Assembly: GCF_003003215.1 (NCBI RefSeq)
Contig: NZ_PVUF01000003.1
Span: 186,001 to 250,000, forward strand
Source: Tritonibacter scottomollicae
Lineage (GTDB): Bacteria > Pseudomonadota > Alphaproteobacteria > Rhodobacterales > Rhodobacteraceae
Direction of reading: 5' to 3'
Length of the DNA: 64,000 nucleotides
Part shown: in pieces, positions 6,132-49,940 of the stretch
Position numbering within the stretch: the first letter of the stretch is position 1
Layout: each line of letters starts with the position of its first letter
Notes under the pieces: model-generated
What the model was told of the DNA's origin: nothing
Databases searched by the model: none
The model's input: only the letters and a program-made list of their open reading frames with translations
Program-made: the position numbers and the translations under genes

Positions 6132-6261
6132 GCCGGGGGCGCTCCCGCCCCTTTGCCGCACAGCCGGAGGCTGCACCCAAAGCGTTGGGCCGGGCGGGGG
6201 CCGCGCCTGAAAGGCGCGGCCCCCGCCCCACCGCGATGCGCGAAGCGCAGCGCAAACCCTC
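6132..6261 (+). repeat. four-hairpin intergenic module, copy A
   Basis: In order: a weak GC stem (6134-6147), a short stem CAGCC-GGA-GGCTG (6161-6173), the anchor GTTGGGCC (6184-6191), a perfect 17-bp stem with a GAA loop (6192-6228), then TGCGCGAAGCGCA and an AAACCCTC end. The same order occurs at 28876, 33198 (inverted) and, in part, at 49864 and 26569. It fills most of the 383-bp gap between the convergent hydrolase and yciB genes; I see no gene in the remainder of that gap. Confidence 0.75.
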
Positions 6262-6291
6262 AGATGAGGACTGCCGAGGTCTTGTGCTCTT

Positions 6292-6930
6292 TCAGCTTGC
6301 GTCCTTGTCCTCTTCCAGCCCGTAGGTCTGGAACAGTCTCGCCTGCGTCATGAAGAACAGGAACATCGCCGCGGTCAGCCCGAAAGTCTTGAAATAGACC
6401 CAGGACTCGGTGCTCATCATCCGCCAGATCACCTCGTTCGCCACCGCCAGCGCAAAGAACATAGCGCACAGGCGCCGGGTCAGGATCATCCAACCCTCGT
6501 CCTGCAGCGGCATCATCTCCTCCATCACCACCCGCAGGTAGCTCTGCCCCCGCAACAGGCCAAAGCCCAGCAACCCGCCGAACAGCAGATAGATCATCGT
6601 CGGCTTCATCTTGAAGAACCGCTCATCGTTGAACCAGACCGACAGCCCGCCGAACACAACGATCAGCACCAGCGTCATCACCTGCATCTTCGACAGCTTG
6701 CCGGTGAGCTTCCACAGCGCCAGCGTTGACAGCACCATCAGCGGCACAAATCCGGCAGTGACCACGATGAAACCCTCATAGGAGGTGCCGCCGATTTCGA
6801 ACGCCTGATCCTTCAGCCGCAGATAGGCGATGAAGAACAGCACAACGGGGCCGTACTCCAACACCGACTTCAGCAGCGGGTTGATCGGACGCCCCTTGTC
6901 CATCGGTTGCTCACTTGTCTGTTCGCTCAT
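6292..6930 (-). CDS. yciB: inner-membrane septation protein YciB/IspZ
   Basis: Polytopic inner-membrane protein of the YciB (IspZ, septation protein A) family, linked to envelope synthesis and cell division. The 212 residues have about five hydrophobic segments. Family landmarks are visible: NPLLKSVLEYGPVVLFF near the start, KMKPTMIYLLFGG in the middle, and an ANEVIWR-type segment near the C-terminus. Starts at 6963 (GTG) and 6942 are possible, but GAGG six bases before the ATG at 6930 decides for that one. It follows the EamA transporter on the same strand with a short gap and is probably cotranscribed with it. Confidence 0.92.
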   Translation of the reverse strand: MSEQTSEQPMDKGRPINPLLKSVLEYGPVVLFFIAYLRLKDQAFEIGGTSYEGFIVVTAGFVPLMVLSTLALWKLTGKLSKMQVMTLVLIVVFGGLSVWFNDERFFKMKPTMIYLLFGGLLGFGLLRGQSYLRVVMEEMMPLQDEGWMILTRRLCAMFFALAVANEVIWRMMSTESWVYFKTFGLTAAMFLFFMTQARLFQTYGLEEDKDAS

Positions 6931-6974
6931 GCGCTGCCTCATATGTCCCAATTGATCTTTCACAGATGGCGCTC

Positions 6975-7883
6975 TCAGCCACCCATTTCAACAATCACCG
7001 CGCCCGCCGCGATCAGCGCCATCAGCGCGATGCGGCGCGGGCCGACGGTTTCCTTCAGCACCAGCCAGCCGATGAGGGCGGCAAACACCGTTGATGTCTC
7101 GCGCAGCACCGCCGCCTCGCCCACCTTGTCGAGTCGCGTCGCCAGCATCACCGACCCAAAGGAGGCAAAGGCCACCAAGCCGCCGAAGAACCCGCGCAGC
7201 ATCAGCGGGCCCACCGTGGGCCGCTCTGCCCCCATCCGACGCCAGCGCCAATAGGCATAGGGCGGCATGGTCAGCCCGTCGATCATGAAGAACCACGCCA
7301 GGAAGGTGAACGGATCCGCCGTCGCCCGGATGCCATAGGCGTCGTAGGTGGTGTAGAGAGCCACAAACAGCCCCGTCGCCACCGCCAGCACCAGCGCGAT
7401 CACCAACGTGTCGCGCGCGGTGACAAGAAAGATGAAATTATAGACCGCCAGCCCGAAGATCCCGGCCAGCAGCACCCCGACACCCAGCCATTGCACCAGC
7501 GTAAAGGTCTCGCCAAACAGCCAATAGGCCCCGATCACCGCAAACAGCGGCCCGGTCCCGCGCACCACCGGGTAGACCACCGTATAGGCGCCCTTGGTAT
7601 AGGCCATCGCCTGCAGCACCTTGTAGAGCACATGGATCACCCAGACACCCACAAAGATCAGCCACATATGCGGCTCCGGCCAGGGCACCACAAACAGCGC
7701 GAAGGGCGCCGCCATCAGCCCGTAGGAGGCATCGATCGCCCCCCGTGACAGCCAGGGATCATGCCGCCCTTTTTGCAGCGCGCCAAAAACCGCATGCAGG
7801 AACGCTGCCGAGACCGCGAGGATCAGCGCGACCTGATGGCCCTGTTCGGTGCCCTCAAGCGAAATCAGCCAGTCGCTCAGCAT
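6975..7883 (-). CDS. EamA/DMT-family transporter
   Basis: A 302-residue inner-membrane protein with ten hydrophobic segments in two EamA repeats. The second repeat ends with VLRETSTVFAALIGWLVLKE, the conserved penultimate helix of drug/metabolite transporters. An AAGGA Shine-Dalgarno precedes the ATG at 7883. The substrate is unknown. It lies directly upstream of yciB and is divergent from the mgtC-like gene. The protein is complete, with no unusual features. Confidence 0.85.
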   Translation of the reverse strand: MLSDWLISLEGTEQGHQVALILAVSAAFLHAVFGALQKGRHDPWLSRGAIDASYGLMAAPFALFVVPWPEPHMWLIFVGVWVIHVLYKVLQAMAYTKGAYTVVYPVVRGTGPLFAVIGAYWLFGETFTLVQWLGVGVLLAGIFGLAVYNFIFLVTARDTLVIALVLAVATGLFVALYTTYDAYGIRATADPFTFLAWFFMIDGLTMPPYAYWRWRRMGAERPTVGPLMLRGFFGGLVAFASFGSVMLATRLDKVGEAAVLRETSTVFAALIGWLVLKETVGPRRIALMALIAAGAVIVEMGG

Positions 7884-7972
7884 ATGCTGTCATCCTTGTT
7901 GTGAACGTGGTGGTTTTTGGAACATCCGCGCGGGGCAGACGTTAAGACACGTCCACCAGCGCCCGAGGTCCC

Positions 7973-8464
7973 ATGTTCGATACCGCCCTGCAACAGATCA
8001 TCGAAGAGCTCACCAGCACCTTTTCCGTGATACCGGCACCGATTGCCTTCGCGCGGCTTCTGGCTGCCAGTGTGCTGGCCGCCCTGGTCGGTCTGGAGCG
8101 TGAGTTGCAGGACAAGCCCGCAGGCCTGCGCACCCATATCCTTGTCTCCGTGGCCGCCTGCCTGTTCGTGGTGCTGGGGCGGGAGATCGCGGCGCTGGAT
8201 TTTGGCGCCGAGGCGCAGCGCAACGATCCCCTGCGCATGATCGAGGCGGTAACGGCGGGCGTGGCCTTCCTGGCGGCGGGGCTGATCTTCACCTCCGGCG
8301 ACCGGGTGCGCAACGTGACCACCGGCGCGTCGCTCTGGCTGGTGGGGGCCATTGGCCTTGGGTGTGGCGCCGGTCAGATGCCGCTCGCGGCGATGGCCAC
8401 GGCCATTGTCCTCACGGTGCTGTTCCTGCTCCGCCATGTGGAGAAATGGATGAGCCGGCATTGA
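7973..8464 (+). CDS. MgtC/SapB-family membrane protein
   Basis: A 163-residue membrane protein of the MgtC/SapB/SrpB/YhiD family. Visible family features are the [29 protein letters not shown] block (residues about 30-57) and the later [10 protein letters not shown] and [21 protein letters not shown] blocks. Only the conserved membrane domain is present and the C-terminal cytoplasmic domain of Salmonella MgtC is missing, as is usual for short family members. The role, perhaps magnesium or phosphate stress, cannot be settled from sequence. It is convergent with ftsY, the two stops only ten bases apart with no visible terminator between them. Confidence 0.85.
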
Positions 8465-8474
8465 TCCGCGATCC

Positions 8475-9605
8475 TCACGCCCCGTCTTCAAGCCCGGTGA
8501 GCGCGGCGGCGAATTCCTCCGGGTCAAAGGGCGACAGGTCGTCGATCTGCTCACCCACGCCGATGGCATGGATCGGCAGGCCGAACTTGTCGGCCAGCGC
8601 CACCAGCACGCCGCCCTTGGCGGTGCCGTCAAGCTTGGTCATCACCAGCCCCGACACATCCGCCAGCTGACGGAAGGTCTCCACCTGCGACAGCGCGTTC
8701 TGCCCGGTGGTGGCGTCCAGCACCAAAAGCGTGTTGTGCGGCGCCTCGGGGTCCTTCTTGCGAATGACGCGGACGATCTTGGCCAGCTCTTCCATCAGGT
8801 CGGCGCGGTTCTGCAACCGCCCGGCCGTGTCGATCATCAAGAGATCGGCGCCATCGGCCTCGGCCTTGGTCATCGCATCAAAGGCGAGGCTGGCCGGGTC
8901 GGAGCCCTCGGGCGCGGTCAGCACAGGCACACCGGCGCGGTCGCCCCAGACCTGCAGCTGTTCCACCGCGGCGGCGCGGAATGTGTCGCCCGCGGCGATC
9001 ACCACGGATTTCCCGGCAGCGCGGAACTGGCTGGCGAGCTTGCCGATGGTGGTGGTCTTGCCGGAGCCATTGACCCCCACCACCAGCACCACCTGCGGTT
9101 TGGAAGGATAAAGCGGCATCGGACGCGCCACCGGCTCCATCACCCGGGCAATCTCCTGTGCCAGCAATTCGCGGATTTCGCGACCCGAAACGCGGCGGCC
9201 CATGCGGCCCTCGGCGATATTGCCGGTCACCCGCAGCGCCGTGTCCACCCCCATGTCGGAGGCGATCAGCATCTCTTCGAGGCTTTCCAGCATGTCGTCA
9301 TCGAGCACCCGGCGCGGCTCGGTTGCGGCACTGCGGCCCATAAGCCGCCCCAGAAGGCCCGGTCTGGACACCTCGGCCTGCGGTGCAGGGGTGGTGGGCA
9401 CATCTGCGGCGGGCGCCTCAGTCGAAGCCCCTGCTTGCGACGTCCCGGCAGGCTCTGCCGCCGCGCGCGTGGCGGGCGCGGGCGGTGGGCTTGCTGGTGT
9501 GGGCTCCGGGGTCGTGGCCCCCTCTTCCACGATCGCATCCACCTCCTTGCCGAGGCGGGATGAGGATTTCAGCAACCGTTCCTTGAGCTTCGAGAAAAGC
9601 GCCAT
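8475..9605 (-). CDS. ftsY: signal recognition particle receptor FtsY
   Basis: SRP-receptor GTPase that docks ribosome-nascent chain complexes at the membrane. The 376 residues split into an acidic, Pro/Ala-rich A region (1-95) and the NG domain. G1 is VGVNGSGKTTTIGKLA at about 177-191, G3 contains DTAGR near 258, and G4 is TKLDGTAKGG near 334. The ATG at 9605 (MALFSKLKERL) follows GGAG with normal spacing; the open frame beyond it to 9635 is not needed. The A region is long and low in complexity, as usual in this order. It is convergent with the mgtC-like gene. Confidence 0.97.
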   Translation of the reverse strand: MALFSKLKERLLKSSSRLGKEVDAIVEEGATTPEPTPASPPPAPATRAAAEPAGTSQAGASTEAPAADVPTTPAPQAEVSRPGLLGRLMGRSAATEPRRVLDDDMLESLEEMLIASDMGVDTALRVTGNIAEGRMGRRVSGREIRELLAQEIARVMEPVARPMPLYPSKPQVVLVVGVNGSGKTTTIGKLASQFRAAGKSVVIAAGDTFRAAAVEQLQVWGDRAGVPVLTAPEGSDPASLAFDAMTKAEADGADLLMIDTAGRLQNRADLMEELAKIVRVIRKKDPEAPHNTLLVLDATTGQNALSQVETFRQLADVSGLVMTKLDGTAKGGVLVALADKFGLPIHAIGVGEQIDDLSPFDPEEFAAALTGLEDGA

Positions 9606-9678
9606 CTGGGTCTCCGCAGGTCGTTTGATATTCACCTAATGCCCTTTGAGGCGGGATGCAAAGCGCAATGCGGCTGTG

Positions 9679-10314
9679 TCACATCGCAAACACCGCGAAA
9701 AACAGCGCCTGCGCCCCCCAGTAGAGCACCCAGACCACTGGCCCGGTGATGCGACGCAAGGCATGGGCTGGCGGCAGCACAAATGTTTCCAGCGCCAACA
9801 CCATGTCCGAGATCATGAACATCACCGCCGCCACCCACAGCAGCGGCAGTGGCAGCGTCAGTGCAGCCAGCGCCATGGTGAGGATCACCGGCACATAGGC
9901 CAGAACCGCCCCGCGCATCTCGCCCGCATGGCGCGTCAGCACCCGCGCCATCAAGCCCGCCACCAACACAAGCGTCGCCATCCCCCAGATCATCGGAGCG
10001 GTCAGAAGCGCTGCAAGATCAGATGGAGGACGCGACAGGAACAGCGCCACATAGGCCAGATGCCCGGCGGCAAAGCTGGCCACCCCCGCCAGAAAGGCGC
10101 GCTCGCCCGGGCGCGACAGGGCCAGATCCCCCAGCGCGCAGAGCCCCAGCGCCAGACCAAGCAGCGGCAGGTGCCCAAAGGCAAGGACGGCCAGCAGCGC
10201 CACCGCGCCGGTTTTCAGCGCCGATCGTGGCCAGCTCTCTGCCGCCCGCACCTGCGCAAGATATCCCAGCGCCAAAACAGCAGTCGCACCCAGTCCGATC
10301 ATCTGCACCGTCAT
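9679..10314 (-). CDS. YhhN/TMEM86-family membrane protein (lysoplasmalogenase-like)
   Basis: A 211-residue, eight-helix membrane protein. The YhhN family signature is seen as LCALGDLALS near residue 60 and FMISDMVLALETF near residue 170; these two Asp-containing motifs are the presumed active site. Characterised relatives (TMEM86B) hydrolyse lysoplasmalogens, but the bacterial substrate is uncertain. GGGAGG precedes the ATG at 10314. It is divergent from the small secreted protein. Confidence 0.8.
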   Translation of the reverse strand: MTVQMIGLGATAVLALGYLAQVRAAESWPRSALKTGAVALLAVLAFGHLPLLGLALGLCALGDLALSRPGERAFLAGVASFAAGHLAYVALFLSRPPSDLAALLTAPMIWGMATLVLVAGLMARVLTRHAGEMRGAVLAYVPVILTMALAALTLPLPLLWVAAVMFMISDMVLALETFVLPPAHALRRITGPVVWVLYWGAQALFFAVFAM

Positions 10315-10442
10315 CGCGGCCTCCCTGCCGATTTACCTCAGCCTGCGCCGGGGATGGCCGACAGGTCAAAGCTGACCTTGCGCCAGCCAGCACCGGCAAT
10401 TGTACCCTTGGCGCGGCTTCGGACATGCGCCATGGTGAGGGC

Positions 10443-10850
10443 ATGTTTAACTCTGCCCCCCTGCGCTTCTGCGCCGTGATCCTTGGCTTCTCTTGTGTCG
10501 CCGCGCCCTTGAGCGCAGCCGACGCGGAGCAGTTCGACAGCTACACCCGCGGACGGACCATTCACTTCGACTTTCTGGGGCAGCACTATGGCGCGGAACG
10601 CTATCTGCCCGGCCAGCGGGTGCAATGGTCCTTTCTCGACGGGCGTTGCGTCGAGGGGGAGTGGTATGCGCAAGGCGATGAGATCTGTTTTGTCTACGAA
10701 GACAGACCGGAGGCGCAGTGCTGGAGCTATGAGATCGGCAGCGAGGGTCTCAGCGTCACGATCACGGGCGACGGGCCGGCGCTCACATTGACCGAACAGC
10801 CTGATCCGCCCAAGGACATGGTTTGTCTCGGCCCCGAAGTGGGTGTCTGA
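10443..10850 (+). CDS. small secreted protein of unknown function
   Basis: A 135-residue protein with a clear Sec signal peptide (FCAVILGFSCVAAPLSAADA, cleavage near residue 26). The mature part is rich in aromatic and acidic residues and has four cysteines, two of them in GRCVEGEW and AQCWSYE. I do not recognise the family. The ATG at 10443 follows GGTGAGGGC; the frame is open far upstream but without a better start. It is divergent from the YhhN gene. A conserved 3' hairpin element directly follows the stop. Confidence 0.65.
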   Translation: MFNSAPLRFCAVILGFSCVAAPLSAADAEQFDSYTRGRTIHFDFLGQHYGAERYLPGQRVQWSFLDGRCVEGEWYAQGDEICFVYEDRPEAQCWSYEIGSEGLSVTITGDGPALTLTEQPDPPKDMVCLGPEVGV

Positions 10851-10859
10851 GGCGAGCCC

Positions 10860-10912
10860 AGGGAGCGAGGCTCTGCCTCGCGCTCCGAGGTATTTATGAA
10901 AAGATGAAGGGG
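10860..10912 (+). repeat. 3'-end element: hairpin plus TATTTATGAAAAGATGAAG tail (copy 2)
   Basis: Directly past the stop at 10850, GCGAGGC-TCT-GCCTCGC forms a stem followed by GCTCCGAGGTATTTATG and AAAAGATGAAGG. It matches the element past folE2 (2026-2079) in sequence, order and orientation relative to its gene. Confidence 0.7.
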
Positions 10913-10923
10913 CTGGCTGCCTG

Positions 10924-12453
10924 CTAGAACAGCGAGCCCTGTTCGCCGGGTGTCTTTGGCGGTTTGGGATTTGCCGGCTTGGCGGTGGCCGGATTGGAAG
11001 GGGCCGGGGCTTTTGTCTCGGCACTGCTCGCGCCGCCGATTTCGGTGATACCATCGGCAAATTCGATGCTGAGCGCCTGTGCCGCCTTCGCGCCTGCGGT
11101 GTCGGTCACCAAGGTCTTGCCGTCGCGCACCACCGCGTAGCCACGGCTGAGGGTGGCCTTGTAGCTGAGGATCTCCAGCTGGCGTCCGGTGGCCATCAGG
11201 CGATCCCGCTGGCGCTGGATTCGCGCGGCCTGCGCGGCATCGAGCCGGTTGGCGATCTGATCCAGCGCGTCGCGCTTGCGGCGCGCGTCCTGTTCAATGG
11301 GCCGCAGGCTCAGCCGCGAGGCGAGATTGTTCAGCCGATCCCGGCGCCGCTCCACCAGTCCGCGCAGGGTGGCCGGGCGCAGCGAGGCGGCACGATCGCT
11401 GAGGGTCAGCTTGCGCTTCTGCACGCCCGCAATCAGCGCGTTGGGCAGCCGGTCGGAGACCCGGTCCAGTCGCTGGCGCGGCGATTCGAGCAGCGTGTCG
11501 GGCTTGGGCAACGCCCGCGCCAGATCGCCCAGCCGCTGCCGGCGCAGCTGCACTGCGCGGGTGGTGGCATGGGCCATGCGCGCGCTTTGGTTCTCGACCC
11601 ATCCCAGAAGCTCCAGCCGCACCGGCACCGCATGTTCCGCCGCCGCCGTGGGAGTGGGCGCGCGCAGGTCAGAGACATAGTCGATCAGCGTGGTGTCGGT
11701 CTCATGCCCCACGGCGGAAATCAGCGGGATGTCACTGGCCGCCACCGCGCGGGCCACGGCTTCTTCGTTGAAGCCCCAGAGATCCTCGATCGAGCCGCCG
11801 CCGCGCGCCACGATGATCAGATCAGGCCGGGGCAAGGCGCCTCCAGGGCTGAGGCTGTTGAAGCCGTCGATGGCGCGGGCCACCTCGGGGGCGCAATTGC
11901 TGCCCTGGACTGCCACCGGCCAGACCAGCACCTTGCGTGGAAAACGATCCCGCAACCGGTGCAGGATGTCGCGGATCACCGCGCCGGAGGGCGATGTCAC
12001 CACGCCGACGATCTGTGGTAGATAGGGCAGCGGCTTCTTGCGTTCGGGGGCAAACAGACCCTCGGACTGCAGCTGGGTCTTGCGCTTTTCCAGAAGCGCC
12101 ATCAGTGCGCCCTGCCCGGCGACCGCCACCTCCTCGACGTTCATGTTGTATTTCGACTGGGCGCCAAAGGCTGTCAGGCGGCCGGTCACCACCACCTCCA
12201 GCCCCTCTTCGGGCACCACAGCCAGCTTGCTCACCTGCCCCTTCCAGGTGGTGCAGGCCAGCACCGAGCGGTCGTCCTTGATGTCGTAGTAGAGATGCCC
12301 CGACCGCGCCTTGAACACCCGGCCTACCTCGCCCTTGACGCGGATGCGGCCAAAGGTGCCTTCCAGCGTGCGTTTCACCTCGCCGGAGATCTCGGAGACG
12401 GAGAACTCGGGCGCGTTCTGACCGGGTGTCGGGTCGTCGAGGAGGTCGGACAT
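10924..12453 (-). CDS. xseA: exodeoxyribonuclease VII large subunit
   Basis: Large, catalytic subunit of exonuclease VII, which degrades single-stranded DNA in repair. The 509 residues include the N-terminal OB fold (FSVSEISGEVKRTLEGTFGRIRVKGEV, about 16-45), the catalytic domain with VVTSPSGAVIRDI and the ARGGGSIEDLWGFNEE block, then a long Arg-rich coiled coil and a C-terminal segment with SRGYAVVRDG. A Pro/Ala/Lys tail ending in GEQGSLF is added. The ATG at 12453 (MSDLLDDPTPG) is preferred to upstream positions because the OB fold begins there. The small subunit xseB is not in the window. It is divergent from purD. Confidence 0.96.
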   Translation of the reverse strand: MSDLLDDPTPGQNAPEFSVSEISGEVKRTLEGTFGRIRVKGEVGRVFKARSGHLYYDIKDDRSVLACTTWKGQVSKLAVVPEEGLEVVVTGRLTAFGAQSKYNMNVEEVAVAGQGALMALLEKRKTQLQSEGLFAPERKKPLPYLPQIVGVVTSPSGAVIRDILHRLRDRFPRKVLVWPVAVQGSNCAPEVARAIDGFNSLSPGGALPRPDLIIVARGGGSIEDLWGFNEEAVARAVAASDIPLISAVGHETDTTLIDYVSDLRAPTPTAAAEHAVPVRLELLGWVENQSARMAHATTRAVQLRRQRLGDLARALPKPDTLLESPRQRLDRVSDRLPNALIAGVQKRKLTLSDRAASLRPATLRGLVERRRDRLNNLASRLSLRPIEQDARRKRDALDQIANRLDAAQAARIQRQRDRLMATGRQLEILSYKATLSRGYAVVRDGKTLVTDTAGAKAAQALSIEFADGITEIGGASSAETKAPAPSNPATAKPANPKPPKTPGEQGSLF

Positions 12454-12584
12454 GGGAAACTCTTGCTCTTGGCTGCTCGGGTGGATGGGTTTGACGCCCG
12501 CGTGGCACAGGGCGTTCTTGTTTATGCGTCGCGCACAGCATAGAACGCGCGACAACGGAGGCCAAGCAGATCGGAGAACGGCTC

Positions 12585-13847
12585 ATGAATATCCTCATCC
12601 TCGGCAGCGGTGGGCGGGAACATGCACTTGCCTGGGCGGTGATGCAGAACCCGAAATGTGACAAGCTGATCGTGGCGCCGGGCAATGCGGGCATCGCGCA
12701 GATCGCCGATTGCGCCAGCCTCGACGCCGAGGACGGCGGTGCGGTGGTCACATTTGCCGAGGAAAACGCCATCGAGTTCGTCATCATCGGCCCCGAGGCG
12801 CCGCTGGCGGCGGGCGTGGCGGATCGGCTGCGGGCTGCGGGCATCTTGGTCTTTGGCCCCTCCGAGGCGGCGGCCAAGCTTGAGGTCTCCAAGAGCTTCA
12901 CCAAGGAGATTTGCGACGCTGCAAACGCGCCGACCGCAGGCTACGGCCATTTCACTGAAGCCGAGGCCGCCAAGGCGCATGTGCGCGAGAATGGCGCGCC
13001 GATCGTGGTCAAGGCCGATGGTCTGGCCGCTGGCAAGGGCGTGATCGTGGCGATGGACGAGCAGACCGCACTGGATGCAATTGATGACATGTTCGGCGGG
13101 GCCTTTGGCGGTGCGGGCGCCGAGGTGGTGATCGAAGAGTTCATGGAGGGCGAGGAAGCGTCGCTGTTTGTGCTCTGTGATGGCGAGGAGATCCTGTCGA
13201 TCGGCACAGCGCAGGACCACAAGCGGGTCGGCGAAGGCGACACCGGCCCCAACACCGGCGGCATGGGCGCCTATTCCCCGGCACCGGTGCTGAGTCCGGA
13301 GATCGAGGCGCGTGCGATGGAAGAGATCGTCAAGCCCACCATGCGCGTGATGGCCGAACGCGGCATGCCCTATCAGGGCGTGCTCTACGCCGGTCTGATG
13401 ATCAAGGATGGAGAGCCGCGTCTGGTGGAATACAACGTCCGCTTTGGCGATCCGGAATGCCAGGTTCTGATGATGCGCCTGGGCGCGCAGGCGCTGGACC
13501 TGATGCAGGCCGCCGCCGAGGGCCGCCTGTCGGAGGCCCGGGTGAACTGGGCCGAGGATCATGCGATCACCGTTGTAATGGCCGCTGAGGGATACCCCGG
13601 CACCTATCAGAAAGGCTCTGACATCAAGGGGTTGAAGGCGCTTCCCGAGGACAGCATGAACATGGTCTTTCATGCCGGCACCAAGGCCGATGGCGACCGG
13701 ATCCTGGCCAATGGCGGTCGGGTGCTGAATGTGACCGCGCGCGGTGACAGCCTGGAGGAAGCCCGGGATCGCGCCTATGCGATGGTGGATCAGATCGACT
13801 GGCCCGAAGGCTTTGTGCGCCGCGACATCGGCTGGCGCGCCTTGTAA
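12585..13847 (+). CDS. purD: phosphoribosylamine--glycine ligase
   Basis: ATP-grasp enzyme of purine synthesis joining glycine to 5-phosphoribosylamine to make GAR. The 420 residues match the family. Landmarks are the N-terminal ILGSGGREHALAW, the ATP-binding VVKADGLAAGKGV near residues 141-153, the signature HKRVGEGDTGPNTGGMGAYSP near 210, and VEYNVRFGDPECQ near 280. The stop overlaps the start of the next gene (TAATG), which indicates translational coupling with the acetyltransferase. PurA, acting later in AMP synthesis, is also in this window but 20 kb away. Confidence 0.98.
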   Translation: MNILILGSGGREHALAWAVMQNPKCDKLIVAPGNAGIAQIADCASLDAEDGGAVVTFAEENAIEFVIIGPEAPLAAGVADRLRAAGILVFGPSEAAAKLEVSKSFTKEICDAANAPTAGYGHFTEAEAAKAHVRENGAPIVVKADGLAAGKGVIVAMDEQTALDAIDDMFGGAFGGAGAEVVIEEFMEGEEASLFVLCDGEEILSIGTAQDHKRVGEGDTGPNTGGMGAYSPAPVLSPEIEARAMEEIVKPTMRVMAERGMPYQGVLYAGLMIKDGEPRLVEYNVRFGDPECQVLMMRLGAQALDLMQAAAEGRLSEARVNWAEDHAITVVMAAEGYPGTYQKGSDIKGLKALPEDSMNMVFHAGTKADGDRILANGGRVLNVTARGDSLEEARDRAYAMVDQIDWPEGFVRRDIGWRAL

Positions 13848-16124: not shown

Positions 16125-16850
<726 letters not shown>

Positions 16851-26568: not shown

Positions 26569-26630
26569 GCGCCGCGCGCCATAGGCGCGCGGCGCGGGTC
26601 GTTTCGGGCCTTGCCCGAAGCGAAAACCCT
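26569..26630 (+). repeat. four-hairpin intergenic module, copy B (3' half only)
   Basis: Only the last two hairpins are present: GCGCCGCGCGCC-ATA-GGCGCGCGGCGC (26569-26595) and CGTTTCGGGC-CTT-GCCCGAAGCG (26600-26622, one G-U pair), then AAAACCC. The GTTGGGCC anchor and the first two hairpins are missing. It lies in the 389-bp gap between the divergent rpiA and gst genes. Confidence 0.75.
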
Positions 26631-28875: not shown

Positions 28876-29005
28876 GGCGGGGCTGCTCCCGCCCGTGCGA
28901 CCCGCATTGAAAATGCGGCCCCTCCGGTTGGGCCGAGCGCGCCGCGCGCCCCGCAGGGGCGCGCGGCGCGAGTCGCTTCGGGCATAGCCCGAAGCGAAAC
29001 CCCTC
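28876..29005 (+). repeat. four-hairpin intergenic module, copy C (complete)
   Basis: H1 is GGCGGG-GCTGCT-CCCGCC (28876-28893). H2 is CCGCATT-GAA-AATGCGG (28902-28918). The anchor GTTGGGCC is at 28927-28934. H3 is a perfect 15-bp stem with a GCA loop (28938-28970). H4 is CGCTTCGGGC-ATA-GCCCGAAGCG (28974-28996), followed by AAACCCCTC. All stems are perfect. Confidence 0.8.
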
Positions 29006-33197: not shown

Positions 33198-33330
33198 GTT
33201 TTTCGCTTCGGGCTTTTCCCGAAGCGACCGGCGCCGCGCACCCCAAAGGGGTGCGCGGCGCCGGGCCCAACTGGACGATGTGTTCCGCCAGGGACACTGA
33301 GACCAGGCGGGAGCCTCCCCCGCCCCTTGG
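33198..33330 (-). repeat. four-hairpin intergenic module, copy D (inverted)
   Basis: The same order as copy C but on the minus strand. H1 is GGCGGG/CCCGCC (33306-33324). H2 is an imperfect stem in 33278-33297. The anchor GTTGGGCC lies at 33271-33264. H3 is a perfect 17-bp stem with a 3-base loop (33228-33264). H4 is CGCTTCGGG/CCCGAAGCG (33204-33226), ending in AAAAACCTC. Confidence 0.8.
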
Positions 33331-41484: not shown

Positions 41485-41516
41485 TTTGGATCGGGTCAAA
41501 AGACGACCAGAGGACA

Positions 41517-42242: not shown

Positions 42243-42316
42243 GTCCGCTCCTCCCCGATTGGACCTGTCTGTTGGGCCGCCCCTCGGGCTCCCGTTTTGA
42301 ATGGTCTACTTATGGT

Positions 42317-43114: not shown

Positions 43115-43251
43115 GATGGCTCCTCCCTCTGGCAATCTCTCTTGTCGTCAGCTTGCAGCGCATCGGGCGCGCTTTCCAGCCTGACGCCGGGGCATGGTTG
43201 GCGCATCATGCACACTTGCCCAGCTGCGCCCGCCCGGCTAGGTCTTGGCCC

Positions 43252-44370
43252 ATGACAGATTTGCGCCAAACCCCGCTCGCCCAGTCCCTGCCCGCCTCCG
43301 TCCCGTTTGTGGGACCGGAAACCCATGAACGCCAGCGCGGCGCGCCGTTTGTTGCGCGGCTCGGCGCGAATGAGAACCTCTTCGGCCCCTCCCCCAAAGC
43401 GGTTGCAGCGATGCAGGCCGCAGCGGGTGAGATCTGGAAATACGGCGACGCGGAAAGCTACGAGCTGCGGCAGGCGCTGTCCGCGCTGCACGGGATTTCG
43501 CCCGATCACATCATGGTTGGCGAGGGCATCGACGGGCTGCTGGGCAATCTGGTGCGGCTATATGTGGGCGCCGGTGATGCGGTTGTGACCTCGCTTGGGG
43601 CCTATCCGACCTTCAACTACCATGTGGCGGGCTTTGGCGGCGTGCTGCACACGGTTCCCTATCGCGATGATCACGAGGATATCGCAGCCTTGATGGCAAA
43701 GGCGCATGAGGTGGGCGCAAAGATCGTCTACCTCGCCAACCCCGACAACCCGATGGGCAGCTGGCATCGCGGCGCAGATATCGTGGCAGCGCTGGACGAC
43801 CTGCCCGAAGGCAGTCTGTTGCTGCTGGACGAGGCCTATGTGGAATGCGCCCCCGACGGCACGGCAGCGCCAGTTGATGTAAATGATCCCCGCGTCATCC
43901 GCATGCGCACGCTGTCCAAGGCCTATGGTATGGCTGGCGCCCGCGTGGGCTATGCCTTGGGCGCGGTTGAGATGATTTCCGCCTTTCACAAGGTCCGCAA
44001 CCACTTTGGCATGAATCGCTGCGCGCAGATCGGCGCGACGGAGGCAATCAAGGATCAGGACTGGCTGGCTCATGTGCAGGCAGAGATTGCCACCGCACGG
44101 GACGAGATTTCCCGGATCGCCATCGAGCATGGCCTGACGCCGCTGCCTTCGGCCACCAATTTTGTCGCCATCGACTGTGGCCAGGACGGTGCGTTCGCCA
44201 AGGCGGTGCTGGACGCTTTGGTCAGCCGGGGCATGTTCGTGCGGATGCCCTTTGCCGAACCTCAGAACCGATGCATCCGTGTCAGTTGCGGCCCGGAGGC
44301 CGAGCGCGCGGCCTTTGCAGCGGCCCTGCCAGAGGCCTTGGCGGAGGCCCGATCACAAGCAGACCGATAA
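43252..44370 (+). CDS. class I/II aminotransferase, HisC-like
   Basis: A 372-residue PLP aminotransferase of the histidinol-phosphate aminotransferase group. Visible features are ARLGANENLFGPSPKAV near 36-52, LGAYPTFNYHV near 117, ANPDNPMGSW near 162, and the PLP lysine in RTLSKAYGMAGARVGYALG near 222. The similarity is to the HisC family, but genuine hisC usually lies with other his genes, so another amino acid substrate is possible. The ATG at 43252 starts the conserved part. It is followed by a 70-residue membrane protein. Confidence 0.85.
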   Translation: MTDLRQTPLAQSLPASVPFVGPETHERQRGAPFVARLGANENLFGPSPKAVAAMQAAAGEIWKYGDAESYELRQALSALHGISPDHIMVGEGIDGLLGNLVRLYVGAGDAVVTSLGAYPTFNYHVAGFGGVLHTVPYRDDHEDIAALMAKAHEVGAKIVYLANPDNPMGSWHRGADIVAALDDLPEGSLLLLDEAYVECAPDGTAAPVDVNDPRVIRMRTLSKAYGMAGARVGYALGAVEMISAFHKVRNHFGMNRCAQIGATEAIKDQDWLAHVQAEIATARDEISRIAIEHGLTPLPSATNFVAIDCGQDGAFAKAVLDALVSRGMFVRMPFAEPQNRCIRVSCGPEAERAAFAAALPEALAEARSQADR

Positions 44371-44456
44371 ACCGGAGCACGCGCGCCAGCGGCTTTACTC
44401 GGGATTTACCTCTTTGGCTTTAGTCTGAACGGACATTGCCTGTCTGGAGGGGTAAT

Positions 44457-44669
44457 ATGAGACGCCATGATGTACCGCCTGCCTCGACGGACTTGCTGTC
44501 CGCCACGCTCAGTTTCCTGACCGTGAACCTGCTGTGGATCTTCATCGTGCTGTGGTTGCTCTACGGGCTTGCGCCGGTGCTTCTGCTGGCCGTCGTGATG
44601 AACCACATGATCAACCGACTGGAGGTCCGCATGCTGTGGGCCCACCAGAAGTCGGAGCGACGCGCCTAA
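44457..44669 (+). CDS. small single-helix membrane protein
   Basis: A 70-residue protein with one long hydrophobic stretch (LSFLTVNLLWIFIVLWLLYGLAPVLLLAVVMNHMI) and a basic C-terminus. GGAGGGG before the ATG at 44457 is a strong ribosome site, which supports a real gene. No family is recognised. It lies 86 bp past the HisC-like gene on the same strand. Confidence 0.65.
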   Translation: MRRHDVPPASTDLLSATLSFLTVNLLWIFIVLWLLYGLAPVLLLAVVMNHMINRLEVRMLWAHQKSERRA

Positions 44670-45016
44670 GGCAGCTCGCAAGATCCGCCTGTGGGGATGC
44701 CAGCCGTCGACGCGTCGTCTCTGGTAGGCGCCTGCGGAGCGGAATTGATCTGCCCGCGAGATGCGGGCCGCGATCCATGTGTCTACATTCTAAGTGCGCT
44801 CTATGGCCATTGCGGACCGTAATCCGGCTTTGCGCCACTGCGCTCAGACTCTTCTTCTTGCCCCGCAAATGTGCACGCCGTTTTGAAACCGGAACCCGCG
44901 AAGGCGATCAGCCTGACAGAGGAGATATCACTCGCGGTTGAAAAGGCGGTCACGGGTCGAACGCCCGCCCCCGCCTTTCGCTGGCATGTTCTCTGACAAT
45001 GAGAGGGATCGCGCCG
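44670..45016. other. 347-bp intergenic stretch, terminator only
   Basis: It lies between the convergent small membrane protein and class V aminotransferase genes. Apart from the minus-strand terminator at 44941-44978 I see no gene, repeat or regulatory site. Confidence 0.5.
44941..44978 (-). terminator. class V aminotransferase terminator
   Basis: On the minus strand AAAGGCGG (44978-44971) pairs with CCGCCTTT (44949-44942) across a G/C-rich loop, giving a stem that ends in TTTT. Confidence 0.65.
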
Positions 45017-46234
45017 TCAGCCCGAATAGCTGCCGGACAGGACCCGTGTTGCGGCGTCGAGCGCGCCCTTGCCGTGAGGGATATCCAGCGCCGTCAGCCC
45101 TGTTTCGATCCCTCCCAGTAGCCCCATAATCATGTGACCATTCACATGCCCCATATGGCCAAGGCGGAAAAACCCGTGCCATTCCGAACTGTCAGGCGGC
45201 GCCATGCCCAACCCGATACCGAGGGTCAGGCCAAGGTTCTCTTCCAGCCACATCCGCAGATCCGTCGCCCGTGGCGATGGCAACCGCAACGCCGTCACGG
45301 CGTGAGAGCGCAGCGCGGGATCCGTGACATTCATCGCCAGCGCACCGCCCTCGCTCCAGCATTCACACGCCGCCCAAATGGCCCGCGCCAGCATTTCGTG
45401 ACGGGTCCAGACCTGCTCAATCCCCTCGGCGTGAAGGATGTCCAGCGCCGCGCGCAGCCCATAAAGGTGATGTGTTGGTGCGGTGCCGCCAAAGAACTGA
45501 TAGAAATACTCCGGGTTGGCGCGCGGGGTCCAATCCCAGTACCGGCTGACGCGCGGCAGCGCAGCACGGGCCTCGGCGGCCTTGTCGTTGAAGAACACAA
45601 ACGACATCCCCGCAGGCACCATCAGCCCCTTCTGGCTGCCGGTGACCATCACATCAACGCCCCAGGCATCCATTTCAAACCGATCACACCCCAGCGAAGC
45701 AATGCAGTCGGCCATCAACAACGCCGGGTGATCTGAGTGATCTATTGCGTCACGCAACCCGCTGATATCATTTCGAATTGATGTGGACGTATCCGTATGG
45801 ACGCCCAGCACAGCCTTGATTTCATGCCCCCGGTCCGAGGCCAGACGATCCGCGACCCGCGCCAGATCAAACGGGGCCTGCAGACCAAAATCCATCACCT
45901 CGATGTTGAGCCCCAGCGCCTCGGCCATCTCGCTCCAGCCATAGGCAAATCGCCCTGACGCCGGCACCAACACCTTGTCACCCTCCTTCAGAGTATTCGA
46001 CAAGGCCGCCTCCCAAGCCCCATGGCCATTGGCGATATAAATGGCGACATGGTGCTCGGTGCGCGCGACCTTGCGCAGGTCGGGGGGCAATGTGTTGGTC
46101 ATATCCACCAGCTCGCCCGCGTAGATATTCGGCGAGGCCCGGTGCATGGCTTGCAGCACCTCATCGGGCATGATCGACGGCCCCGGGATCGCCAGATATG
46201 ATCGCCCGGACGAGAGTTTCACAGAATCGCGCAT
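45017..46234 (-). CDS. class V aminotransferase (alanine/serine--glyoxylate type)
   Basis: A 405-residue PLP enzyme of the class V group near serine-glyoxylate and alanine-glyoxylate aminotransferases. Visible features are IPGPSIMPDEVLQAM near the start, ANGHGAWEAALSNTLKEGDKVLV near 74-96, and the PLP lysine in VTGSQKGLMVPAGMSFV near 202. The C-terminal FFRLGHMGHVN with its Arg is typical of the group that binds a substrate carboxylate. It probably works in glyoxylate or serine-cycle metabolism. The ATG at 46234 has AGGA ten bases upstream. It is divergent from the ABC exporter. Confidence 0.88.
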   Translation of the reverse strand: MRDSVKLSSGRSYLAIPGPSIMPDEVLQAMHRASPNIYAGELVDMTNTLPPDLRKVARTEHHVAIYIANGHGAWEAALSNTLKEGDKVLVPASGRFAYGWSEMAEALGLNIEVMDFGLQAPFDLARVADRLASDRGHEIKAVLGVHTDTSTSIRNDISGLRDAIDHSDHPALLMADCIASLGCDRFEMDAWGVDVMVTGSQKGLMVPAGMSFVFFNDKAAEARAALPRVSRYWDWTPRANPEYFYQFFGGTAPTHHLYGLRAALDILHAEGIEQVWTRHEMLARAIWAACECWSEGGALAMNVTDPALRSHAVTALRLPSPRATDLRMWLEENLGLTLGIGLGMAPPDSSEWHGFFRLGHMGHVNGHMIMGLLGGIETGLTALDIPHGKGALDAATRVLSGSYSG

Positions 46235-46466
46235 GTTCGAATGTCCTGCTGGGTGCTCCAAGTCAGGGTCTGATCGCAAAATCGACCCGGAGCTTATTTG
46301 AAAATCTCAGGCAGCCTAGCGCAGCCCCGGCTGAGGTCAATTGCCAAGCAGGCGCCGACCCAGCCGTTGCAGATGGCTTGCACGCTGCAGCTAAGCTGCT
46401 TAAATGTCGGGACTTGTCGCAAGAAACGCGGCGCATCGACACGTTTCTACGCATGGGAAGAGCACA

Positions 46467-48326
46467 ATGAGCACGCAATACATGTCCTCGCGCGAGTTGT
46501 TGCGCTGGCTCTGGCGCGGCTACCTACGGCATCATGTGGGATTGCTGTCGATCGCCATCTTCTTCATGCTGCTCGAAGGGGCCTCCGTCGGCGGGCTCAG
46601 CTATATGATGCAGCCGATGTTTGACCTGGTGTTCGTCGACGGCAGTTCGGATGCGCTGATCTGGGTCAGCATTGCCTTTTTTGGCATTTTTCTGCTCCGC
46701 GGGATCAGCTCGGTGACGCAGAAGGTCATATTGGCCACCATCAACCAGCGCTCCGAAGCGCATATGCGGACCGACATGCTGGATCGGCTGATCCATCAGG
46801 ACGCCAGCTTTCACCAGCATCACCCGCCCGGCTTTCTGATCCAGCGCGTTCAATCCGACGTCTCTGCCATCAACCAGGTCTGGCAGGCGATCATCACAGG
46901 GTCCGGACGCGACGTGGCGCAGCTCGTCGCGGTGCTTGGCGTGGCGATCAGCGTAGACTGGCGCTGGACCGCCATCATGCTGATCGGCGTGCCCCTACTA
47001 GTGCTGCCGCTTTCCATCGTACAGCGCTACGTGCGCAAGAAGGCCAGCCAGGCGCGCGATCTTGGCGCGGTGCAGGCCACGCGTCTCGACGAAGTGTTTC
47101 ACGGCATCGTCCCGATCAAGCTGAACCGGCTTGAGAGCTATCAAACCGGGCGCTACCGCACTGCGACAACAGCGTTTGTGCGCGCTCAGATCAAGGCGGC
47201 ACTTGGTGCTTCGTCGACCTCTGGTCTGGTGGACCTGATGGCCGGACTGGGTGTGATGTGCGTGATTCTGTTTGGTGGTCGCGAGATCATCAACGGCGAC
47301 AAAACCGTTGGCGAATTCATGAGCTTCTTCACCGCGATCGGCCTCGCCTTTGACCCGATGCGGCGTCTCGCCTCGATCATGGGGGTCTGGCAGGCTGCCG
47401 CCGCCGCCATGGAGCGCATCAAGGAGCTGATCGATGCGCCGATTACACTGGTCTCGCCGACAGATCCGAAGCCAGCCCCGACCGGCCTGCCGGAAATCCG
47501 TTTGGACAGCGTGAACCTGTTCTACGGCGAGGCACATATTCTGCGCGATCTGTCACTGGTCGCCGAAGCGGGCAAGACCACCGCATTGGTGGGCGCCTCC
47601 GGGGCGGGTAAATCCACCATTTTCAACATCCTGACACGTCTTGTGGACCCGCAGGAAGGATCCGTGACGCTGAATGGCACGGAGGTCCGGGATCTCGATC
47701 TCGGCGACCTGCGCAACCTGTTCTCCGTGGTGACGCAGGATGCATTGCTGTTCGACGAAACCCTGAAGGAGAACATTCTGCTGGGGCGGACCGATGTCAG
47801 CGACGAGCGCCTGACCGAAGTTCTGGACGCGGCCCATGTGTCGGACTTTCTGCACAAGATGCCAGACGGGCTTGAGACACGGGTGGGGCCGCGCGGCTCT
47901 GCCCTGTCCGGCGGTCAACGCCAACGGGTGGTGATTGCCCGTGCCCTGTTGCGCGACACACCGTTGCTGCTGCTGGACGAGGCGACCTCGGCGCTTGATG
48001 CACAATCGGAAAAGGTGGTGCAGCAGGCGTTGGAGAAACTCTCTGGCGGACGCACGACAATCGTGATCGCACACCGGCTCTCGACCATCCGTGCCGCTGA
48101 CAAGATCGTGGTGATGGAACGCGGCCGGGTGATGGACGAAGGCCGTCACGAGGATCTGTTGGAGCGCGGCGGGATCTACGCCGACCTTTACAGGCTGCAG
48201 TTTCAGGATGGCAAAACGGTGATCGATACCGATGGGGTCAATGCGCAACTCACACGCAACGAAAACCGCAACGATGGTGAACAAGCCGGTCTGTTGCGTC
48301 GGTTCGCCCGCCGTCTGTTCGGCTGA
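46467..48326 (+). CDS. MsbA-like ABC exporter (fused membrane and ATPase domains)
   Basis: A 619-residue half-transporter with six transmembrane helices (residues about 20-310) and an ATP-binding domain (about 345-590). Walker A is VGASGAGKSTIFNIL, the Q-loop is SVVTQDALLF, the signature is ALSGGQRQRVVIARAL, and Walker B is LLLLDEATSALD. All catalytic residues are present. Close to MsbA/LipA-type flippases for lipid A or other lipids, but drug export is possible. GGAAGAG precedes the ATG at 46467. A C-terminal tail of about 35 residues follows the ATPase domain. Confidence 0.9.
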   Translation: MSTQYMSSRELLRWLWRGYLRHHVGLLSIAIFFMLLEGASVGGLSYMMQPMFDLVFVDGSSDALIWVSIAFFGIFLLRGISSVTQKVILATINQRSEAHMRTDMLDRLIHQDASFHQHHPPGFLIQRVQSDVSAINQVWQAIITGSGRDVAQLVAVLGVAISVDWRWTAIMLIGVPLLVLPLSIVQRYVRKKASQARDLGAVQATRLDEVFHGIVPIKLNRLESYQTGRYRTATTAFVRAQIKAALGASSTSGLVDLMAGLGVMCVILFGGREIINGDKTVGEFMSFFTAIGLAFDPMRRLASIMGVWQAAAAAMERIKELIDAPITLVSPTDPKPAPTGLPEIRLDSVNLFYGEAHILRDLSLVAEAGKTTALVGASGAGKSTIFNILTRLVDPQEGSVTLNGTEVRDLDLGDLRNLFSVVTQDALLFDETLKENILLGRTDVSDERLTEVLDAAHVSDFLHKMPDGLETRVGPRGSALSGGQRQRVVIARALLRDTPLLLLDEATSALDAQSEKVVQQALEKLSGGRTTIVIAHRLSTIRAADKIVVMERGRVMDEGRHEDLLERGGIYADLYRLQFQDGKTVIDTDGVNAQLTRNENRNDGEQAGLLRRFARRLFG

Positions 48327-48428
48327 ACAACACGCTGGCCTTTCCCTAGTTTGGACGACCGCTTGAACTTTGGCTCTGGCCGCGTCACATCTTGGCCAAC
48401 GCCCAAACCCAAGAGAGGGAGACCCAGC

Positions 48429-49175
48429 ATGGCAAATCGCCGCATCCTCCGCCTATCCGGCTCAGAAACCCGCGATTTCCTGCAGGGGCTGGTCACCAAT
48501 GACGTCGGCAAGCTGGATCAGGGGATGGTCTATGCCGCGATGCTCACCCCGCAGGGAAAGTACCTGGCGGATTTCTTTATGGTCCCCGATGGCGATGCCG
48601 TGCTGCTAGACGTGGCAGAAGAGCTCGCGGATGGGCTGAGCAAACGCCTGAAGATGTACAAGCTGCGCGCTGATGTCACCCTTGAGGACAGCACGCTGAA
48701 GCTGCGCCGGGGCACCGGAGAGGCGCCCGATGGCGCATTTGCCGATCCCCGTCATCCCGATCTCGGCTGGCGGCTCTATGGAGAAGAGGCAGGAGATGAC
48801 GACAGCGATTGGGATGCGATCCGCGTGGCGCATGTGATCCCCGAAACCGGGATTGAGTTGTCCCCGGACAGTTTCATTCTCGAAGTCGGGTTCGAGCGGC
48901 TGAATGGCGTCGATTTCCGCAAAGGCTGCTATGTCGGGCAGGAAGTCACTGCCCGCATGAAGCACAAGACAGAACTGCGCAAAGGTCTGCAACAGGTCGA
49001 GATCGAGGGCAGCGCCCCGGTTGGCGCAAAGATCACCGCCGACGGCAAACCGGTTGGGCAGGTCTTTACGCAGGCCGAGGGCAAGGCGATCGCCTATCTG
49101 CGCTATGACCGCGCAAAGGGTGCGCTGCAAGCCGAAGAGGCCGAGCTGCGCTGGCCAGCGGGCGCGACCTCCTAA
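48429..49175 (+). CDS. ygfZ: tRNA-modifying/Fe-S assembly protein YgfZ
   Basis: Folate-binding protein of the GcvT-like family that supports maturation and repair of certain iron-sulfur enzymes. The 248 residues carry the family signature FRKGCYVGQEVTARMKHK near 175-192, whose Cys is essential in E. coli, plus the N-terminal FLQGLVTNDV. AGGGAG precedes the ATG at 48429. It lies about 100 bp past the ABC exporter on the same strand. Confidence 0.95.
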   Translation: MANRRILRLSGSETRDFLQGLVTNDVGKLDQGMVYAAMLTPQGKYLADFFMVPDGDAVLLDVAEELADGLSKRLKMYKLRADVTLEDSTLKLRRGTGEAPDGAFADPRHPDLGWRLYGEEAGDDDSDWDAIRVAHVIPETGIELSPDSFILEVGFERLNGVDFRKGCYVGQEVTARMKHKTELRKGLQQVEIEGSAPVGAKITADGKPVGQVFTQAEGKAIAYLRYDRAKGALQAEEAELRWPAGATS

Positions 49176-49287
49176 ACCGCCCCCCCCGGAGCACAGCCCT
49201 GCCTATCTCAGTTGTGGAATATTTAAAATTTGCGCTCTAAGGTGTCGCCGACCGCTTTCGTTTGGGAGGCGCAAAGGGAACAAATTT

Positions 49288-49848
49288 ATGAATTTTCGAC
49301 ATCTGATGGGTGCGGTCGGGCTAACGGTTCTGGCATTGCCAGCAGCGGCAGACCATTATTGGGAATATGGCGACTGGCGGGTCAACATTACTGACGAAAC
49401 CGCAGGCCAGAATGTGCGTCGATATTGCCGCGCAAGCACCGGTGGCGATGGCATGCCGACGCTATGGTTGGAATTCAGCGATGGCGATACAGGCCCGCCA
49501 CATGGCTATCCAACCCCGACATATTCCACCAGCGCACCGCGCGGCTATCGCACGCAGGTGGGCAACGCACAGGGCGTGGCATTTGTCTTTGATCAACAGG
49601 GCACATTCTTTGGCGTTGCCGAGGGCGGCATCGACGAAGAGGGGATCGCCTGGGCCGCTGCCAGTCCGCGCTGGCAGGATGTGAAAAATATGCTGCTATG
49701 GATGAAGGCCGCCTCGCAAATGGAGGTGCGCGCCCTGGATGCCTACCGTGCGAGCACTCAGGTCTATGTTGCCTCGATGAACGGCTTTACCGCAGCCTAT
49801 GGCAAGATGATGGACAGCTGCGGTCACTCGATCGAGATCCCACGATAG
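49288..49848 (+). CDS. secreted protein of unknown function
   Basis: A 186-residue protein with a Sec signal peptide (MGAVGLTVLALPAAADHYW, cleavage near residue 21). The mature part begins with a run of Trp/Tyr (HYWEYGDWRVNI), has two cysteines (RRYCRAS and DSCGHS) that may form a disulfide, and no recognised domain. It is probably periplasmic. AAAGGGAAC precedes the ATG at 49288. It is convergent with efp across repeat module E. Confidence 0.65.
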   Translation: MNFRHLMGAVGLTVLALPAAADHYWEYGDWRVNITDETAGQNVRRYCRASTGGDGMPTLWLEFSDGDTGPPHGYPTPTYSTSAPRGYRTQVGNAQGVAFVFDQQGTFFGVAEGGIDEEGIAWAAASPRWQDVKNMLLWMKAASQMEVRALDAYRASTQVYVASMNGFTAAYGKMMDSCGHSIEIPR

Positions 49849-49863
49849 AGCGTGTCAGATGAC

Positions 49864-49940
49864 GACGGGGGGCTCCCGCCCGTCGCTATCGCATGGGACA
49901 TGCGACATCTCCCGTTGGGCCGGGCGCCGCTGCGCGGCGC
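49864..49940 (+). repeat. four-hairpin intergenic module, copy E (last hairpin missing)
   Basis: H1 is GACGGG/CCCGTC (49864-49884). H2 is TCGCATG-GGA-CATGCGA (49889-49905). The anchor GTTGGGCC is at 49914-49921. H3 is GCGCCGC-TGC-GCGGCGC (49924-49940). H4 and the AAACCC end are absent. Confidence 0.75.

Follow-up and report, generated by a model that had tools for sequence, protein, structure and literature searches.

Repetitive extragenic palindromic (REP) sequences have been grouped into two super-families, GTAG and CGTC, and the CGTC type is described in Alphaproteobacteria without a dedicated transposase (PMC3733652). The protein TnpA-REP reads REPs as single strands and in a strand-specific manner (PMC8266576). 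For the CGTC REPs, the existence of REP-like repeats without a dedicated transposase is presented as an open question (PMC3733652). Here we describe a dispersed hairpin module in a 64,000-nt stretch of the genome of Tritonibacter scottomollicae (contig NZ_PVUF01000003.1, positions 186,001 to 250,000; this whole stretch is called the window). A first-pass annotation made from its letters had pointed to five places bearing up to four hairpins in the order H1, H2, an anchor GTTGGGCC, H3 and H4. Like REPs, the module occurs in many dispersed, intergenic palindromic copies and prefers convergent or unidirectional gaps near 3′ ends, which is clear for convergent gaps and for gaps in which both genes run along the module. 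With moderate confidence we regard it, from sequence comparison, as an old mosaic repeat of the REP or bacterial interspersed mosaic element (BIME) kind that is inherited in place, belongs to Rhodobacteraceae as far as tested and uses H2 as a one-strand recognition hairpin for a putative protein partner.

The module and its family

The pattern CTCCCGCC-N22..52-GTTGGG occurs at 94 places in the 4.68-Mb genome of the strain, compared with 4 places for the reversed pattern, and a covariance model (R1) built on 32 gap-free copies yields 104 matches at E<=1 in the same genome. Many more copies than the five in the window thus exist, as the proposal of a dispersed family implied. The anchor GTTGGGCC alone is without significance in the window (6 seen, 3.8 expected), and a window pattern with a fixed 4-base H4 loop gave 0 matches. 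No Rfam family matched over the modules, either in the window at the gathering threshold or in nine loci at E<=1, and we found no description of such a hairpin-module family in the open-access literature; this agrees with the annotation, which had recognized no named family.

The 32 copies were also analyzed for compensated changes. For H1 and H2 jointly, two-sided changes with pairing kept were found in 104 cells, against 33.3 ± 5.2 in shuffles and 31–54 when the partner was slid by 1–3 columns, and the covariation score was 0.408 against 0.114 in the control. The number of pairs with any two-sided change (12) was not above that in shuffles (10.6; 89 of 500). In this test the structure was derived from the same 32 related sequences that were tested, and H1 was unable to covary because CTCCCGCC was demanded by the pattern. 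A single H2 is matched in its pair count by 266 of 1840 shuffles, and single copies therefore prove little. Covariation in the 32 copies, strong in H2, nevertheless exceeds the shuffle and slide controls, and the annotation's refuting condition, no covariation beyond shared ancestry, does not refute it. The claim that structure is kept more than sequence is borne out.

Conserved letters begin about 8 bases left of CTCCCGCC and read GGGRRSG-CTCCCGCC, then 29–45 nt with H2, then GTTGGGCC-GGGC. The unit CTCCCGCC-H2-GTTGGG spans 43–59 nt in the copies found. Attached to it are either one or two palindromes (H3, and an H4 that is of type Z or type B) or another such unit, which is inverted. We drew the anatomy of the strain's own copies from 92 of the 94 pattern places (C10:142920 and C12:73878 were excluded). 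H3 was found in all 92 copies, H2 in 88 with 82 different stem sequences, and a further hairpin of at least 6 bp in 62. H1 is present, as claimed, but weak in some copies, with sampled folds of −1.3 kcal/mol (L034) and −1.9 kcal/mol (L026); at an orthologous site, named site A, one relative (G009) lacks the 5′ arm of H1 and another (G010) has only a short one (CGGG), CTCCCGCC being kept. A GNA loop, ascribed earlier to most H2 hairpins, is not general: among the 88 copies bearing H2 we counted GAA 10, GGA 3, ACA 10 and AAA 6 times. H3 is a near-perfect palindrome with 2862 Watson–Crick pairs, 2 G.T and 7 A.C/C.A. The flanks CGTC, which follows CTCCCGCC in 112 of 277 copies, and CTCCC correspond to GACG and GGGAG on the other strand, where they may form tandem G.A pairs.

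The copies end in different ways. By loose motif tests on 91 own copies, H4 of type Z follows in 17 and of type B in 15, an inverted partner in 25, H3 only or other endings in 30 and no H3 in 4; of 9 own copies with a type B H2 (CTTT..AAAG), 8 also have an H4 of type B. The family is therefore a mosaic. Several inverted pairs (such as L036 at 1501 + and 1639 −, L056, L073, L076) join unlike units, CGTCGCC..GCTCCC with CCCGCAGGTGC..CTTGGCGGG, so that each pair looks like one asymmetric composite; two of the inverted pairs align at 75% over 194 nt.

Strand asymmetry of H2

The most telling result is a strand asymmetry of H2, which is absent from the first-pass annotation. In 276 distinct sequences, with H2 of at least 4 pairs kept, the mismatches read along CTCCCGCC comprise 77 A.C+C.A versus 6 G.T+T.G, 32 T.C+C.T versus 7 G.A+A.G and 16 C.C versus 2 G.G. 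They are spread over the stem positions with peaks. Because G.U/G.T and G.A pairs in a folding strand are read as A.C and T.C on the other, the sides of the mismatches point to the folding strand. If the columns were independent, G.T+T.G would be expected 62.5 and 65.0 times in two alignments, where 6 and 12 were seen, and A.C+C.A 78.5 and 93.4 times, where 30 and 55 were seen. As a control, 68 T-tract hairpins behind genes in the window and the syntenic regions gave 41 G.T+T.G and 3 A.C+C.A.

Folding energies agree with the mismatch counts: the strand opposite CTCCCGCC is the stabler one in 264 of 293 copies with RNA energies (85/92, 54/62 and 125/139) and in 272 of 293 with DNA energies. The strand on which the module had first been read folds worse at H2, and its complement folds better. 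The asymmetry amounts to 3.61 kcal/mol versus 1.88 by composition (remainder p 8e-23), and shuffling nothing but the flanks of the inner stem destabilizes the opposite strand by 2.44 kcal/mol and the top strand by 0.54. H3 has no asymmetry with RNA energies. One of the sets used in the study, the ‘other’ set (74 of 80 listed loci in one analysis, including records named Phaeobacter), is biased because its retrieval required GGGCGCCG and covers only the matches listed.

We compared modules lying between two genes of the same direction. The H2 asymmetry is equal where the folding strand is sense (49 copies) or antisense (57 copies) to both neighbours (p 0.52) and is therefore a property of the element, not of the neighbouring mRNA. 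With tandem orientations balanced in this way and the strand signature the same in both, the suggestion of an RNA 3′-end structure of the neighbouring gene is not supported.

Copies, placement and inheritance

All five window places carry hairpins in the order first described, with corrections to their parts. In copy 1, H1 (6131..6149, +) contains CTCCCGCC at 6142-6149 and belongs to an R1 match at 6128-6195 (50.4 bits); H2 (6150..6183) is of type B with an outer CTTTG/CAAAG helix, and its better-folding strand, taken from the family-wide result, is the minus strand. The anchor GTTGGGCC (6184..6191, +), a perfectly palindromic H3 without strand (6192..6228) and a type B H4, GCGATGCGC..GCGCAGCGC, with the AAACCC tail (6233..6259, +) follow. 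The description of H4 as CGCTTCGGGC/GCCCGAAGCG consequently fails for this copy, whose H4 is of type B (GCGATGCGC..GCGCAGCGCAAACCC). The half copy consists, as corrected, of H3 (26569..26595, no strand) and a type Z H4 (26599..26624, +) only, without H1, H2 and anchor; divergently read predicted genes flank it, and by eye and in the comparison of syntenic regions H3-H4 is present as a half in the same place in three relatives (G005, G016, G008). The claim of mostly convergent gaps holds for the remaining places, three of which lie in convergent gaps and one in a tandem gap.

Copy 2 has H1 at 28876..28893 (+, R1 76 bits) with CTCCCGCC at 28886-28893, H2 at 28894..28926 folding better on the minus strand, the anchor GTTGGGCC at 28927..28934 (+), H3 at 28938..28970 (no strand) and a type Z H4 with an AAACCCC tail at 28973..29003 (+). 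Copy 3 is inverted: H1, H2 and the anchor (33264-33271) occupy 33260..33330 on the minus strand (44.2 bits) with the plus strand as the better-folding H2 strand, and H3 and a type Z H4 (from 33227 downwards) lie at 33198..33259 (−). Copy 4 comprises H1 (49864..49880, +, R1 70.9 bits) with CTCCCGCC at 49873-49880, H2 (49881..49913, better-folding on minus), whose stem sequence differs from that of five relatives at this site, the anchor GTTGGGCC (49914..49921, +) and H3 (49924..49940, no strand); H4 is missing, and by eye the copy is followed by a distinct hairpin that resembles a terminator and has a short T run.

The copies avoid genes: by our own rough gene predictor, all 281 distinct copies fall outside genes, which upholds the earlier statement that they stand between genes. 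With copies less than 300 bases from a locus end set aside, as well as 4 of the 281 that lack one predicted neighbour, the contexts of 277 copies are 165 convergent, 57 tandem along the module, 49 tandem against it and 6 divergent; the 303 gaps of at least 80 bp in the window and five syntenic regions are 48 convergent, 165 tandem and 90 divergent. Divergent gaps are avoided and convergent gaps favoured. In tandem gaps running along the module, the module starts at a median of 22–35 nt past the stop codon, with 167–224 nt from GTTGGGCC to the next start. In gaps running against it, the start codon lies at a median of 106–118 nt from the H1 side and the stop 100–152 nt from GTTGGGCC, including H3/H4, and closeness to the stop is less clear. 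A replication-strand bias was considered and rejected as weak: on the chromosome of G008, GC skew puts the CTCCCGCC of 22 of 34 copies on the leading strand, and in the own genome the ratio is 33:25 (p 0.36; 43 of 101 listed copies skipped) or 51:40 with contigs assigned by hand (91 of 101). One 139-base query against plasmids, an insensitive search, found three places in two Tritonibacter mobilis records. Four matches on viral contigs (L321–L324) are weak (18 bits, E 0.007-0.008), three of them with an identical score.

All 17 other genomes of the genus carry the module, with 8–100 matches at E<=0.01. Among 7 further genera in the family, 3 have it; of 16 genomes from beyond the family, 2 gave one marginal match each (E 0.0024 and 0.0068). 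In a survey of 149 Rhodobacteraceae genera, the family being set by record names and at most 34 candidates per genome being scored, 25 genera had matches at E<=0.001, the own genus included. Modules also occur in five JAHVJD01 records (L218, L241, L242, L253, L273) titled Nocardioides marinus DP1N28-1; the neighbours in L242 and L273 have 75–87% identity to proteins of our strain, so this name looks wrong.

Sites are kept between species. At site 4 (49864) each of the six species has a module, G001 a weak one, and the stems mostly differ. Site 1 (6132) is occupied in four of the six (G008 and G010 lack it) and site 3 (33198) in five (weakly in G008, not in G001), the latter also at contig ends of G004, G009 and G015. 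Site 2 (28876) is filled in the own genome (G000), in G001 in degenerate form and in G010, G009 and G015; the gap at this place is longer in G005, G016 and G008. Another site, at 52905-52978 of the window, is empty in the own genome, filled in G005, G016, G001 and G010 and reduced to a remnant in G008. Of 248 genes flanking modules in other loci, 54 match genes that flank own modules, versus 28 of 617 control genes taken from those loci; for 45 of the 54 both side and direction agree. Neighbours of paired modules are counted more than once in these numbers, and a few of the loci come from the own genus. In 19 ortholog pairs with both flanks matching, some of them within the genus (L222 twice, L269), median H2 identity is 0.64 versus 0.52 at random (p 7e-5); both members have a stem of at least 4 bp in 16 pairs and the stem differs in 18. 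No pair among 91 own copies exceeds 88% over at least 90 nt. Whole modules thus stay in place, drift and decay, and a recent spread of whole modules is not seen; without near-identical full copies in the own genome, and with sites kept between species, the earlier idea of a mobile repeat is not supported for the present day.

Two further features were noticed in the window. At 4649-4727 (−) lies a SAM_alpha riboswitch (68 bits against a gathering threshold of 36) upstream of a predicted gene at 3386-4576 (−). Another dispersed motif, TTCATCTTTTxxxAAATAYCTCxGGG with a hairpin after it, was seen at five places in the window and the loci L031–L100, namely at 2029 (+) and about 10880-10909 (−) of the window, at 1585 (+) of L044 and on the minus strand of L055 and L072. 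It stands closely behind the module in L044 and, by eye, also in L023 and L028.

Interpretation and comparison with known hairpin repeats

The position of the module would suit a bidirectional transcription terminator or a stabilizer of mRNA 3′ ends acting in the neighbouring transcripts, as it begins shortly past the stop codon in gaps running along it and favours convergent gaps. Tandem gaps with a module are also poorer in T-tract terminators (4 of 29) than those without (19 of 53), so that a terminator role is conceivable at some sites such as site A, where relatives that lack the module carry, by eye, a hairpin either accompanied by a T run (G011, G014) or without one (G003). However, TTTT within 12 nt after H3 was found in 0 of the 87 own copies, 0 of the 55 from the genus and 4 of the 114 others, and in none behind a further hairpin; the intrinsic terminator is not supported as a general identity. 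T-tract terminators are equally common in convergent gaps with (21 of 74) and without (8 of 26) a module, by eye a distinct terminator-like hairpin is still present beside the module at sites 3 and 4, H3 lacks the wobbles of T-tract hairpins, and the folding strand does not depend on gene direction. We consider this explanation unlikely. Alternatively, the strand opposite CTCCCGCC might be transcribed from a start of its own into a structured RNA, which would account for the G.U and G.A pattern as that of an RNA helix; the wobble ratio resembles that of T-tract hairpins of the same genomes, and the GGGAG/CGAC flanks could contribute tandem G.A pairs. Yet in 57 of 277 copies the folding strand is antisense to both neighbours and bears the same signature, so that such an RNA needs its own promoter; none was noticed by eye right of the module, where no scan was made, and we give this possibility only a small chance. 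ProQ, tried as an RNA partner, was rejected: it was detected in 0 of 149 genomes at E<=1e-4, the E. coli positive control being found.

A selfish miniature element that a transposase still mobilizes in trans, like a REPIN or a miniature inverted-repeat transposable element, would explain the high copy number, the patchy distribution over 25 of 149 genera, the inverted pairs and the mixture of filled and empty sites. The H3-H4 parts of L065 and L092 even share 96% over 76 nt and other pairs 90–92% over 78–81 nt, so that parts may have been copied or converted more recently, and by these identities the exchange of H3-H4 may be younger than whole modules. Against ongoing movement, the check for a TnpA-REP gene proposed earlier gave no Y1 transposase in the own genome nor in 16 of the 18 genus genomes, two having one; other transposase families were not searched. 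Y1 genes occur in 4 of the 25 genera that bear the module and in 11 of the 124 that do not, without clear co-occurrence, and six Y1 loci (L374–L379), three from module-bearing genomes, have no module at E<=0.1. Without a Y1 gene in the own genome a TnpA-REP element is not supported, and with no near-identical full copies among the 91 and with sites kept, present-day movement seems highly improbable. Template switching at inverted repeats is a mechanism that matches arms without selection. If such mutational upkeep were the only cause, H3 would be expected to be near-perfect on both strands, as it is; the kept CTCCCGCC and GTTGGG, the one-sided H2 mismatches and the kept sites would all be unexplained, and we hold this to be very improbable.

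Of the possibilities first raised, the REP-like character is supported; a 3′-end structure of neighbouring mRNA and present-day mobility are not. In an old REP-like repeat inherited in place, H2 on the strand opposite CTCCCGCC (5′ CCCAAC-stem-GGCGGGAG) would serve as the recognition hairpin. Its stem letters would be largely free, G.U/G.T and G.A being tolerated on the folding strand and hardly on the other, and the putative protein would read the near-invariant base letters CCCAAC and GGCGGG. H3 and H4 would be nearly strand-neutral stem barriers. The module would then act like a REP, as a folded single-strand site for that protein behind genes, where a hairpin would leave promoters undisturbed and may protect or separate 3′ ends. 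Going further, the modules might tentatively be seen as chromosome-wide, strand-specific folding sites, inherited in place across species and genera, of a putative single-strand DNA- or RNA-binding system of Rhodobacteraceae, independent of REP-associated tyrosine transposases (RAYTs) and ProQ, that would act at gene 3′ ends regardless of transcription direction, its stems drifting while base motifs and folding strand stay.

Several observations weigh against the interpretation of H2 as a recognition hairpin and of the module as a REP relative. Composition accounts for about half of the H2 energy asymmetry, A.C and C.A peak at some H2 stem positions, and with DNA energies the own set has a small H3 asymmetry (58 versus 27). 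The copies are interrelated and not independent, and the scarcity of T-tract terminators in tandem gaps with a module counts here as well. The pairing of the base motifs is nearly without covariation support because the motifs hardly vary and the pattern required them: the base helix CCC/GGG between CTCCCGCC and GTTGGG has one compensated C-G to G-C change (in L129). Its mean probability on the folding strand is 0.09 with the H1 arm and 0.97 without, and as a candidate it was rejected because H1 outcompetes it. In 35 E. coli REPs taken from six 50-kb pieces, the GTAG strand has A.C (35) and A.G (38) mismatches, in contrast to the G.T/G.A that prevail on the stable strand here, and it is the less stable strand in 25 of the 34 that differ. 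As the strand read by TnpA-REP is the less stable one in most of these E. coli REPs, a protein does not necessarily read the strand that folds better, and by this analogy the top strand could be read instead. Strict REP membership is opposed by the lack of a GTAG tag in the conserved columns, by the lack of a detected Y1, RAYT or TnpA-REP gene in the own genome where the GTAG REP has its transposase, and by a unit that is longer than the 20–40 bp of REPs and has two kept motifs and nearly free stem letters.

The family has many orthologous sites across species and genera and a clear better-folding strand; its two kept motifs could be used as bait for a partner, and hosts such as Phaeobacter and Ruegeria are culturable and can be modified. 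The family suggests that selection acting on the fold of a single strand can maintain such repeats long after whole copies ceased to spread. Counting A.C versus G.T mismatches, with T-tract hairpins as control, is also a simple test for the folding strand of a repeat family.

Among described repeats, the CGTC REPs share with this family their place in the genome, alphaproteobacterial hosts, the lack of a dedicated transposase, inverted dimers and a CGTC, which here follows CTCCCGCC in the fraction of copies given above. Their published form has stems of 8–9 bp with A-T at the first two positions, loops of 4–5 and tails that are mostly CCA (PMC3733652), whereas none of these features appears in our conserved columns, which places the module outside that type. 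The names Phaeobacter, Roseobacter, Rhodobacter, Ruegeria and Silicibacter are absent from the main text of that article (PMC3733652). Integron attC sites have RYYYAAC..GTTRRRY ends and go with an integrase; GTTGGGC fits GTTRRRY by eye, the other end does not fit, and the inverted pairs stand in the opposite order. With E. coli REPs and BIMEs the family shares dispersed palindromes in convergent or unidirectional gaps near 3′ ends, inverted dimers, a mosaic build and a strand-specific hairpin with mismatches. By description it may also resemble the RIME and ABC mosaic elements of Rhizobiales, which are intergenic mosaics of palindromes.

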